Below, one piece after another: positions 40,350 through 51,561 of a DNA stretch of 64,000 nt. The notes under the pieces are model-generated. The model did no database searches and was not told the DNA's origin. It was given only the letters and a program-made list of their open reading frames with translations. The stretch is from Halostella limicola (GTDB lineage Archaea; Halobacteriota; Halobacteria; Halobacteriales; Natronoarchaeaceae). Location: the NCBI RefSeq assembly GCF_003675875.1, contig NZ_RCDI01000003.1:496001-560000 (forward strand), written 5' to 3'. The translations under genes and the position numbers were made by a program. Within the stretch, counting starts at the first letter, position 1; each line of letters starts with the position of its first letter.

Positions 40350-40373
40350 TGTCTCCCGACCTACTGACTGTTG

Positions 40374-40700
40374 ATGACGGAGGACGACGACGACCGGACC
40401 GGGATGCCGTGGTCGCCAGCAGCGTTCGCACAGCAGATGCAACAGGCGAGCGAGCAGGCGGTGGAGTCGCAGCAGGAACTGTTCGAGCAGTTCCTCTCGG
40501 CCAACGCCGGCGGGCTGGACGCCATGACCGACCTCAGCCAGATGAGCATGGGCACGGCGACGTTCAAGACCCGTGTCCAGAGCAGCGGACGGATAAGCAT
40601 CCCCGACGCCGAGCGCGAAGCCCTCGACATCCAGGAGGGCGACATCGTGCAGACAGTCGTCGTCCCCGTGAAACGCAACAGAAGTGATAACAATGACTGA
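40374..40700 (+). CDS. phaR: AbrB-type regulator of PHA granule genes
   Basis: 108 residues. The N-terminal half is a Gln/Ala-rich amphipathic helix (FAQQMQQASEQAVESQQELFEQFL) that probably binds PHA granules. The C-terminal half is a SpoVT/AbrB swapped-hairpin DNA-binding domain (FKTRVQSSGRISIPDAEREALDIQEGDIV). This matches haloarchaeal PhaR, which senses granules and controls phaRP. It overlaps phaP by 8 bp (ATGACTGA), so the two are translationally coupled. Confidence 0.9.
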   Translation: MTEDDDDRTGMPWSPAAFAQQMQQASEQAVESQQELFEQFLSANAGGLDAMTDLSQMSMGTATFKTRVQSSGRISIPDAEREALDIQEGDIVQTVVVPVKRNRSDNND

Positions 40701-41178
40701 CACCAACCCCATCCAGACCGCATTCGAGTTCCAGCGCACCGCCGTCGAACAGACCCAGCAGGCGACCCACGACGCCGTCGAGGCCCAGAAGGCCCTCGTC
40801 CAGACGCTCGCCAACAGCGTCGAGCCCGTCGCGGCCCTGCAGGCCCAGACCAACGACGTGAGCCAGCAGGCCGCCCACGCCTACCTCGACGCCGTCGAGT
40901 CCTCGCTCCCCGAGGACGCCGCCGACTTCGACGAACTGCGTCAGGCCGTCGACGACGGCTTCGAGTCCGTCGACGACGTGCAGGCCGACGCCTGGGAGTC
41001 GTTCGGCGAGATGCTCGACGAGAGCGTCGCCGCCTTCGACGAGGCCGCCGACAACTACACCGACGCCGTCGACACCACGTTCGACACGTTCCTCAACGCA
41101 CACGAGCAGGTCGAGGACAGCGTCGAGCAGGTCGCCGAGAACGCCGAGGACGTCGCCGAAGACGTCGCGGCCAACTGA
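40693..41178 (+). CDS. phaP: Phasin, PHA granule-coating protein
   Basis: 161 residues, almost entirely amphipathic helix: FEFQRTAVEQTQQATHDAVE, FESVDDVQADAWESFGEMLD, FLNAHEQVEDSVEQVAENAED. Haloarchaeal PhaP coats granules and fixes their number and size. The start is the ATG at 40693, inside the end of phaR; the reading frame upstream would add only MIT. 43 bp separate it from phaE. Confidence 0.88.
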   Translation: MTDTNPIQTAFEFQRTAVEQTQQATHDAVEAQKALVQTLANSVEPVAALQAQTNDVSQQAAHAYLDAVESSLPEDAADFDELRQAVDDGFESVDDVQADAWESFGEMLDESVAAFDEAADNYTDAVDTTFDTFLNAHEQVEDSVEQVAENAEDVAEDVAAN

Positions 41179-41221: not shown

Positions 41222-41773
41222 ATGGCAGACTCGTTCAACCCTGACGACGCGGCGCAGAACTGGAACAGCTTCGTAGAACAGATGAACAAGCAGTTCATGG
41301 ACGCCTTCGAGCAGAACGTCGAGGCCCAGGCGGAGTTCGTCGAGTCCTGGACAGAGACGCTCGAGGCGAACGCGGACGACCAGGAGCTCACCGAGGGCGT
41401 CAAAGGCTACGCCCGCGCCTACGAGGCGTGGATGGACGCCGCCCAGCAGATGGTCGAGCGCGTGAACGACTCGATGGAGGGTGAGGACGTCGAGGTCGAG
41501 GAGTTCCGCGACATCTGGCTCAACACCGCCAACGAGGCGTTCAAGGAGGCGATGAGCACGACGGCGTTCGCCGCGGCGACCGGCGAGTCCGTCCAACAGG
41601 CGCTCGACCTCCGACAGCAGGCCGGCGAGGCCTCCGAGTCCACGCTCAGCGAACTCGGCTTCGCCACCGAGGGCCAGATCGTCGAGGTCGGCGAGCGCCT
41701 CGTCGAACTGGAGCGCCGCCAGCACGCCGTCGAACAGAAGCTCGACCGCATCGTAGAGGAACTCGAAGAATGA
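41222..41773 (+). CDS. phaE: PHA synthase subunit PhaE (class III, haloarchaeal)
   Basis: 183 residues, helical and acidic ([45 protein letters not shown]). The C-terminal coiled coil ([26 protein letters not shown]) is typical of PhaE. It is the non-catalytic partner that activates PhaC. Short compared with bacterial PhaE, normal for haloarchaea. Its stop overlaps the phaC start by 4 bp. Confidence 0.92.
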
Positions 41774-43323
41774 ACCCGTACGCCGACGCCATCGACCTCC
41801 AGCGACAGGCCTGGGAGAACGCAACCGAACTCGTCGAGAAGACGGGCGCGGCGCCGGACGCCGCCGACACCGTCGCGGACGTCGACGTCGGCCAGACGCC
41901 GAAAGAGGTCGTCTACGAGGAGAACAAGCTCCAGCTCTACCACTACGAGTCCAAGACGGAGGAGCAACACGACGTCCCGATCCTCATCGTCTACGCGCTG
42001 ATCAACCGGCCGTACATCTTGGACCTCCAGCCCGACCGCTCGGTCGTCCAGACGCTGCTGGAGAACGGGTTCGACGTGTACATGATCGACTGGAACGAGC
42101 CGTCGAAGCTCGACGCCTCGCTCACGCTCGACGACTACGTCAACCGCTACATCGACAACTGCGTCGACGAGGTGCGCGAGCGATCCGGCCAGGACTCGAT
42201 CAACATCCTGGGCTACTGCATGGGCGGCACGATGAGCGTGATGTACGCCGCGCTCCACCGCGAGAAGGTCCGCAACCTCGCGCTGATGGCCGCCGGCCTC
42301 TGCTTCGCCGGCGACGGCGGCGTGCTCGAACTCTGGGGCGCCGACGAGTACTACGACCCCGAGAAGGTCGCGGAGACGTTCGACAACGTCCCCGCCGAGT
42401 TCCTGGACCTCGGGTTCGCGCTGATGGACCCCATCGCCAACGGCGTGACGAAGTACGTCCGCCTCTACGAGAACATCGAGGACGAGGACTTCGTCCAGAA
42501 CTTCGCGCGCATGGAGGAGTGGCTGGGCGACGGCATCGACGTCGCCGGCCAGACGTACGTGGAGTTCCTCCGCGACGTCTACCAGGAGAACAAGCTCTAC
42601 GAGAACGAACTGGAGCTGAACGGCAAGCGCGTCGACCTCGACAACATCGACATGCCGATCCTCCAGATCGTCGCGGAGTACGACCACCTCATCCCGCCGG
42701 AGGCCTCCAAGCCGTTCAACGACGTCATCCCGAGCGACGACGTGACGACGATGGAGTTCCCCACCGGCCACATCGGGATGTCCGTCTCCTCCAGTTCCCA
42801 CGCGGAGCTGTGGCCCGACGTCTGCGAGTGGTTCGAGGAGCGCTCGCAGGTCGAAGCGGACGCCGACGAGGACCAGGGGCCGGGCGAGTCCCGCTCCGAC
42901 GAGGAGATCGAGGAGATGGCCGAGACGGACATCCAGGAAGAACCCGCGGAGCCGGGCGAGATGCACGTCGACGAGGAGACCGTCGAGGAACTCGTCGACG
43001 AGACGGACGACGAGACGACCGAGGCCGAGGCGACGACCGAACCGGAGGAGCCGGACGCCGCCCTCGCCGAGGACGTCGACGCGGACGAGAGCGAGGCCGA
43101 AGTCGTCGCCGAGGAAGGGACGGACGTCGAGTCGACCGCGACCCTGCAGGACATCGAGGGCGTCGGCCCGTCCTACGAGGAGGAACTCCGCGGCGCCGGT
43201 ATCGAGAGCGTCGCCGACCTCGCCGCGGCGGACGCCGCCGCCCTCGGCACCGACGCGGACGTGCCGGCCAGCCGCCTCGAAGACTGGATCGAGCAGGCCC
43301 GCGAACTGCTCGACGAGGAGTGA
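41770..43323 (+). CDS. phaC: Class III PHA synthase PhaC with a C-terminal helix-hairpin-helix fusion
   Basis: 517 residues. The alpha/beta-hydrolase core (1 to about 355) has the lipase-like box GYCMGG with nucleophile Cys150, and the triad is completed by Asp305 (AEYDHL) and His334 (TGHIGM). It polymerises (R)-3-hydroxyacyl-CoA. Beyond the core, about 100 acidic, disordered residues (Glu/Asp/Ala/Thr) lead to a 61-residue domain (457-517) with the hairpin [20 protein letters not shown], a helix-hairpin-helix of the kind that binds DNA or proteins. Haloarchaeal PhaC proteins usually have only a modest tail, so this fusion is unusual. Confidence 0.93.
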
Positions 43324-43377
43324 CGGCGCGGGGCGCCGCGGCGACACCCTTACACGACCTCCCTGACTGGGGGAATC

Positions 43378-43384
43378 CTTATAC
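43378..43384 (+). promoter_or_regulatory. TATA box of phaB
   Basis: CTTATAC lies in the 153-bp gap after phaC. A transcription start near 43406-43408 gives phaB its own mRNA with a leader of about 70 nt, in which the hairpin at 43412-43463 falls. Confidence 0.45.
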
Positions 43385-43411
43385 GGCGACTGCTTGATTG
43401 TGTACCTAGCG

Positions 43412-43463
43412 ACAGGAACGGCGGGCGCTCGATCCGAAACGCTCGGTCGTTCGCCGTCCCTGT
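43412..43463 (+). promoter_or_regulatory. Long leader hairpin before phaB
   Basis: ACAGGAACGGCG (43412-43423) and CGCCGTCCCTGT (43452-43463) pair over 12 positions with one mismatch, around a 28-nt loop. The structure would begin within a few nucleotides of the predicted mRNA 5' end and finish 13 nt before the phaB ATG. It could control translation or mRNA stability. Confidence 0.45.
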
Positions 43464-43476
43464 ACCGGCTCCAACC

Positions 43477-44220
43477 ATGAAAATGGACGACCGCACCTGT
43501 TTGATCACGGGATCGGGGAGGGGTATCGGCCGCGGCATCGCGGAACATCTCGGTCAGGAGGGGGCGAACGTCGTCGTCAACTACCGGTCGTCTGAGTCGT
43601 CCGCGCTGGAGGCCGTCGAGACGATAGAGGAGTCCGGCGGACACGCCATCGCCGCGCAGGCCGACGTCACCGATCGGGACGACGTCGACGCGATGCGCGA
43701 GACGATCCACGAGGAGTTCGGCCCGCTCGACGTCCTCGTGAACAACGCCGGGATCACGAAGGACACTCGCTTCACCAAGATGACCCGCGACGAGTGGGAT
43801 CAGGTGATGAACGTCAACCTCGGGGGGACGTTCAACTGCACGCAGGCGTTCTACGACGACATCTGGAACGCCGACGAGGGCCGCCTGATCAACATCTCCA
43901 GCATCGTCGGCAAGCAGGGCAACTTCGGGCAGGCCAACTACGCCACCGCGAAGAGCGGCCTGTTCGGCTTCACCCGCACCATGGCGCTCGAACTCGCCAA
44001 CGGCGGGTCGACCGCGAACTGCGTCGCGCCCGGGTTCACGCGAACGGACATGCTGGAGACCGTGCCCGACAAGGTCCAGGAGAAGATCGTCGCGGAGATC
44101 CCGCTCGGTCGCTTCGCGGAGATCGAGGACATCGCCGCGACCGTCCGCTTCCTCGCCAGCGAGGAGTCGTCGTACATCACCGGCGAGGTGCTGGACGTCA
44201 ACGGCGGGATGGATCTGTAA
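43477..44220 (+). CDS. phaB: Acetoacetyl-CoA reductase (SDR family)
   Basis: 247 residues. Rossmann motif CLITGSGRGIGRGIAEHL (TGxxxGxG), the LVNNAG strand, catalytic Ser in NISSIVGK and the YxxxK pair Tyr155/Lys159 in NYATAKSG. It ends EVLDVNGGMDL like FabG/PhaB. Position directly after phaEC argues for NADPH-dependent reduction of 3-ketoacyl-CoA to the (R)-3-hydroxyacyl-CoA used by PhaC. Between it and the next gene lie 254 bp of GC-rich sequence with CTCGCTCCGCTCG-type short repeats and no gene. Confidence 0.88.
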   Translation: MKMDDRTCLITGSGRGIGRGIAEHLGQEGANVVVNYRSSESSALEAVETIEESGGHAIAAQADVTDRDDVDAMRETIHEEFGPLDVLVNNAGITKDTRFTKMTRDEWDQVMNVNLGGTFNCTQAFYDDIWNADEGRLINISSIVGKQGNFGQANYATAKSGLFGFTRTMALELANGGSTANCVAPGFTRTDMLETVPDKVQEKIVAEIPLGRFAEIEDIAATVRFLASEESSYITGEVLDVNGGMDL

Positions 44221-51487: not shown

Positions 51488-51561
51488 AGCCAGGGGTGGG
51501 ATTTGAACCCACGAATTCTCGATTACAAGTCGAGTGCTTGAACCGCCCAAGCTCCCCTGGC
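51488..51561 (-). tRNA. tRNA-Thr (anticodon TGT)
   Basis: Full cloverleaf on the minus strand. The acceptor stem pairs GCCAGGG with CCCTGGC, plus discriminator T. The anticodon stem is CTCGA/TCGAG with loop CTTGTAA, giving anticodon TGT at 51525-51527. The T arm is GTGGG-TTCAAAT-CCCAC. No intron and no encoded CCA. The D arm uses GGCGGTTCAAGC-type spacing. Confidence 0.93.

Follow-up and report, generated by a model that had tools for sequence, protein, structure and literature searches.

A hairpin in the likely conserved, structured leader of phaB in Halostella and related haloarchaea

A hairpin lies directly upstream of phaB in Halostella limicola, and the locus raises the question of whether it is a working part of the message or an accident of the DNA. 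The window analyzed here is the whole 64,000-nucleotide stretch of contig NZ_RCDI01000003.1 (positions 496,001 to 560,000, forward strand), and coordinates refer to it. For Haloferax volcanii, PMC7531240 gives the proportion of leaderless mRNAs as 72%. At the present locus, the original prediction was that a PHA gene bears a structured leader ~70 nt in length, possibly a translational switch.

The features of the locus are listed in Table 1. The name phaB was given to the SDR reductase gene for its place after phaE and phaC. The repeat search found arms that are 76% complementary over 21 nt and separated by a 10-nt spacer. In the predicted fold, an A–C mismatch separates 5 basal pairs from a run of 10, and a second mismatch separates these from the last 4 pairs. 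The 12-bp arm with one mismatch that had been described earlier corresponds to the basal part (43412–43423 with 43452–43463, interrupted by the single A–C mismatch), and the stem continues beyond it. The hairpin starts ~5 nt downstream of the transcription start predicted from the TATA box and finishes 13 nt before the ATG, both as originally placed, and it lies 88 nt downstream of the phaC stop codon. The TATA score is the highest within 150 nt of the ATG, and the TATA spacing predicts a phaB leader of ~70 nt. The GGGGGAAYCCTT block of the predicted promoter is common to the phaB upstream regions of all five Halostella. Inspection of the stretch between the hairpin and the ATG revealed no Shine–Dalgarno-like sequence.

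Table 1. Features at the phaB locus (window coordinates)
Feature	Position	Strand	Basis or remark
AbrB-like candidate regulator	40371–40700		in PHA cluster
Small open frame	40684–41178		no NCBIfam match
phaE	41222–41773		upstream neighbor of phaC in cluster
phaC, class III PHA synthase subunit, upstream neighbor	41770–43323	+	TIGR01836, 432.5 bits, above cutoff
Predicted promoter, GGGGAA block and TATA hexamer CTTATA (43378–43383)	43370–43383	+	TATA score 9.6
Promoter-proximal block ACTGCTTGATTGTGTACCTAG, spanning predicted start	43389–43409	+	by eye; start near 43407 from TATA spacing
5′ arm of leader hairpin	43412–43432	+	repeat search, fold
Apical loop between arms	43433–43442	+	repeat search, fold
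3′ arm of leader hairpin	43443–43463	+	repeat search, fold
13-nt stretch from hairpin to ATG	43464–43476	+	sequence
phaB, acetoacetyl-CoA/3-oxoacyl reductase, SDR family, 247 aa	43477–44220	+	PF13561, PF00106; TIGR01830 above cutoff

In the fold of 43412–43520, the ATG is held in a weak hairpin of 4 pairs, whose partner is the beginning of the coding region. The phaB N terminus reads ATG-N3-ATG-G (Met-X-Met-Asp) in 5/5 Halostella (43472–43488 in the window), and the real start could be either of the two ATGs; the two ATGG strings are able to pair, giving the weak 4-pair hairpin across the start codon. Two other ideas about the region were tried and rejected. The PhaB protein might have extended N-terminally over the hairpin, but the open frame measures 259 aa in G001 and 265 aa in G003, which is too short to take in all of it there. 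Nor is the hairpin a mobile repeat; its only full match in the genome is itself, and the eight other matches are 16–21 nt long with E values of 0.05–0.66.

Taken alone, the hairpin is moderately unusual. The fold of 43412–43520 has a z score of −2.21 (5/200 shuffles equally good), that of 43378–43476 a z score of −1.01 (30/200), and that of −66 to −9 relative to the ATG a z score of −3.19. The leader-only shuffle test gave p = 0.033 for this genome and 0.010–0.033 across all five Halostella phaB, whose hairpin energies range from −24.5 to −32.5. Ranked by raw energy, 144/855 upstream regions (−75 to −1) of predicted genes from five Halostella genomes equal or outdo that of phaB in folding. Such common strong folds favor the first rival explanation, in which the hairpin was made by chance or mutation: GC-rich DNA folds readily, and template switching during replication could keep the arms complementary while the RNA goes unused. 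According to PMC8794818, template switching can both create and maintain hairpins.

Predicted leaders of other genes provide a background. Among 45 predicted leaders of 45–85 nt from the fetched Halostella regions, only four reach −0.44 kcal/mol per nt, namely three of phaB and one of an L1-like gene; two Halostella phaB leaders fall outside this list because of their TATA score or predicted gene start. The notion that every leadered gene has such hairpins was ruled out, as the mean z score of the 45 control leaders is only −0.50. The leader of the L1-like gene (G000 C4, about 635137–635776, outside the window) has the strongest fold of the 45 (z −4.6) and is the sole other one at phaB-level energy per nt. 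The product of this gene is, judging from its sequence, presumably ribosomal protein L1. L1 genes have structured, autoregulated leaders that mimic an rRNA site to which their own product binds; if this holds, the L1 leader is an unplanned positive control. It differs from the phaB leader in that nothing suggests binding of PhaB to its own leader.

Comparisons of arms across orthologs gave mixed ranks. In the arm-permutation test, the native arms rank 2/120 in Halostella and 2/720 in Haloarchaeobius, with a tie counted. Little weight is placed on this result, because the apex was picked from the native fold and phaB ranks only 26th of 69 ortholog groups in native-minus-chimera arm pairing. By the hairpin energy of the weakest member, phaB is 2nd of 69 groups, most controls having 3 species and phaB 5. 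The hairpin is made convincing only through the comparison between species.

PhaB matches were found in 9/9 genomes of the family of Halostella and, at E ≤ 1e-100, in 144/293 genomes of the order; the upstream regions of 71 phaB loci and 13 more were examined. The 5′ ends follow three designs: a hairpin leader, a predicted leaderless or nearly leaderless start, and a weakly folding leader that is termed f4-type here. The hairpin leader occurs on phaB in 5/5 Halostella, 6/6 Haloarchaeobius, and 2/2 Halorubellus, and in both f10 genomes that have phaB (leader p 0.120 and 0.047). Shorter versions are present in 8/9 f14 genomes that have phaB. In g2 and g3, sister genera in the family of Halostella, the leaders are short and their small hairpins are not significant when taken singly (p 0.19–0.46; 4 species). 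In most other f7 genera, phaB is predicted to be leaderless or nearly so, with a TATA-like site ~29–36 nt upstream of the ATG. The f4-type leaders, in genus g21 and its relatives, are ~40 nt long and fold weakly (−2.5 to −6.2 kcal/mol, p 0.28–0.89 for eight of them). The phaB leaders of g21 (L087–L094) are near-identical over ~50 nt (GGCTGTGCTTTGCCAGATTAGGTGATGAGCGTACGAAGCAACAGGGCTC), and what is conserved there is sequence, not shape.

Within Halostella, the predicted phaB leaders are 70, 71, 68, 54, and 57 nt long. The first hairpin pair lies 3–6 nt past the TATA-predicted start in all five, a spacing of ≤6 nt that is also seen in 36/45 control leaders. Loops and arms vary in sequence between lineages, and the Halostella leaders share only the short apical string CG[AG][AT]CCG[AG]. 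A leaderless phaB mRNA, which would have undone the original proposal, is unlikely in Halostella because a good TATA-like site is absent at −40 to −26; across 16 hairpin-bearing species, the best scores in that interval are −2.5 to 5.5 versus 7.1 to 9.6 upstream. The structured leader of about 70 nt is supported by prediction, and its hairpin recurs in orthologous leaders.

Whether the fold is kept while the sequence drifts was addressed by a drift test, in which the observed substitutions between paired leaders were moved to random same-base positions and the products were refolded, in both directions. The test asks how often a randomized history yields a fold as good as that of the real one. 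The pairs were picked after the hairpins had been seen, with manual choice of some leader lengths, and on this basis the geometric-mean p was ≤0.05 in 6/11 phaB pairs (0.031, 0.040, 0.007, 0.033, 0.023, and 0.050). The remaining five pairs gave 0.071, 0.057, 0.288, 0.245, and 0.116. When 10 phaB pairs were each represented by the larger of their two p values, Fisher's method gave 1.8e-3. A rerun with a different random seed left 5/11 pairs at ≤0.05. As controls, 49 pairs were taken from different genes in these genomes (Halostella only); none reached p ≤ 0.05, and the corresponding counts were 0/8 for leaderless phaB pairs and 0/4 for f4-type pairs. The phaB leader thus keeps its fold as its sequence changes, better than drift alone would have it, and a conserved, structured phaB leader is likely.

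Pair by pair, the support is smaller. In a fixed register, 10/23 varying pairs in four two-sequence alignments still pair, four of them with both sides changed. Alignment A4 has two both-sided and two one-sided pairs with five pairs not kept, A5 three one-sided pairs with none broken, A6 one both-sided pair with five not kept, and A7 one both-sided and one one-sided pair with three not kept. The alignment of four Haloarchaeobius sequences (A3) contains three both-sided pairs, and 88% of its cells are paired, a level reached by 9/500 shuffles. The pair counts leave out the five-sequence Halostella alignments, in which the arms were badly placed, and alignment A2, in which two sequences are one base off in the 3′ arm. 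Column-by-column covariation is therefore modest. The basal stem tends toward sequence conservation, whereas the apical part re-pairs in a shifted register; pair counting underrates the apical part because re-pairing in another register earns no credit. The compensatory changes sought in orthologous leaders are accordingly seen by the drift test, which allows re-pairing, and only to a modest extent column by column.

These comparisons bear directly on an origin by chance or mutation. Between the most similar pair of Halostella leaders, differences are concentrated in the apical part and re-pair in a shifted register, as such an origin might produce, and the same signal on both strands also suits it. 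However, the retention signal appeared in 0/49 control upstream pairs of the same genomes, hairpin leaders recur on one gene across several families, and the Halostella hairpin holds its place between the predicted start and the ATG despite the change in leader length. Template switching by itself leaves both the link to the leaders of one gene and the 0/49 controls unexplained, and an accidental hairpin seems unlikely to us. The letters of the hairpin vary between species yet its ability to fold stays, so it probably serves for control or protection.

The strand test, which sets RNA with its G–U pairs against the symmetry of DNA, failed to separate the two forms: the sense strand folds lower than the antisense strand in 12/23 leaders, and the drift signal is similar on both. 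Because the signal is equal on the two strands, the RNA form of the hairpin is one that we infer rather than read from this test.

Our best explanation, in which we have moderate confidence, is that the phaB mRNA carries at 43412–43463 a selected, constitutive 5′-terminal stem-loop, with a role in message protection, in setting translation, or in both. The TATA box at 43378–43383 would direct transcription to begin ~5 nt ahead of the hairpin. A single stem-loop would make up almost the whole leader, leaving 13 unpaired nt before the AUG, and its folding ability would be retained by selection while the sequence drifts. The hairpin may close the 5′ end and shield the message from 5′-end-dependent decay, and/or it may set the rate of Shine–Dalgarno-independent initiation on the open stretch beside the AUG.

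The anatomy of the leader probably fits such a constitutive guard or rate-setting element better than the switch that was originally suggested, because nearly the whole leader is hairpin, the hairpin begins beside the predicted 5′ terminus, and the start codon is left free of it. As a regulated switch, the hairpin would be altered by a metabolite, a protein, or a small RNA, and access to the start codon would change with it. The leader belongs to a storage-polymer gene, the need for which presumably varies with carbon supply, and conserved folding would be expected of a switch as well. Yet the hairpin takes in neither the start codon nor the preceding 13 nt, and the minimum-energy and centroid folds yielded no alternative structure in which the start would be hidden and then released; for these reasons, the switch is left without positive support. 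When Rfam models were run against the window, only a tRNA at 51488–51561 reached the gathering score, and the leader had no match. Arm and loop sequences differ between lineages, the apical string being shared only within Halostella, and no conserved ligand pocket is evident in the loops. We consider a switch distinctly unlikely.

The dyad could also be a DNA operator bound by a dimeric regulator, for example the AbrB-like protein encoded within the cluster at 40371–40700. Its position just downstream of the predicted start and the equality of the strands in the strand test are in line with this, and in genus g16 of f14, where an operator is conceivable, the basal stem is conserved in sequence. 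That genus is the only place where the arms are conserved; between Halostella species they differ, and a conserved half-site was not found. Arms that drift even within Halostella while their complementarity stays are unlike an operator that is read by sequence, and the upstream block at 43389–43409 is a better operator candidate, which makes an operator in the hairpin very unlikely. The closeness of the hairpin to the phaC stop codon might suggest a terminator or a processing element for that gene, but this is scarcely credible, as no T run follows the 3′ arm, the predicted promoter sits between phaC and the hairpin, and the hairpin recurs beside the start of phaB.

Bacterial mRNAs of the Escherichia coli ompA type carry 5′-terminal stabilizing stem-loops. 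The favored 5′-terminal element of phaB resembles them in having a stem-loop predicted to begin a few nucleotides from the 5′ end, a single-stranded stretch before the start codon, and a shape more conserved than its sequence; it differs in being archaeal, in lacking a visible Shine–Dalgarno sequence, and in having a 5′ end that is predicted. The phaB hairpin would join these known 5′-terminal stem-loops, and its recurrence on one gene is of interest. As far as a gas-vesicle review (PMC4390858) describes them, structures in haloarchaeal untranslated regions often stabilize mRNA or bind regulators, and leaders of gas-vesicle genes reduce translation relative to leaderless versions. The gas-vesicle genes are thus similar in having a haloarchaeal untranslated region with secondary structure, but their stabilizing stem-loop lies between gvpA and gvpC and is not 5′-terminal. 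Among titles and the beginnings of abstracts, with subscription journals thinly covered, no report of a phaB leader hairpin was recognized.

A wider reading, which we advance tentatively, is that haloarchaeal phaB has two interchangeable 5′ ends, one leaderless and the other a 5′-terminal hairpin with a short open stretch, and that the hairpin has repeatedly arisen or been remodeled in several families as a 5′-end guard, selected for shape alone, of a message that has a leader. Initiation without a Shine–Dalgarno sequence on leadered mRNAs and 5′-end protection are poorly understood in haloarchaea, and a gene whose mRNA is predicted to lack a leader in certain genera but to carry a hairpin leader in others offers a natural comparison for both. 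If the reading is true, leaders with conserved structure and diverged sequence would form a set for testing the effects of shape alone. phaB is also a target of bioplastic engineering, and its leader could serve as a tuning part.

Two further observations concern the surroundings of the hairpin. The block at 43389–43409, which Halostella species have in common, is possibly an initiator or an operator. In the Halostella congeners (L012, L013, and L014), it forms an imperfect inverted repeat, CTRGTTG and CAACYAG separated by 6 nt. A similar string, GTTGAAnGTGT, occurs just upstream of the ATG in the predicted-leaderless f7 genera, and the two are possibly a shared operator or initiator. In the upstream gene, residues 458–512 at the C terminus of PhaC run from an acidic stretch into a helix-hairpin-helix domain (PF14520, score above cutoff), which is odd in a PHA synthase.
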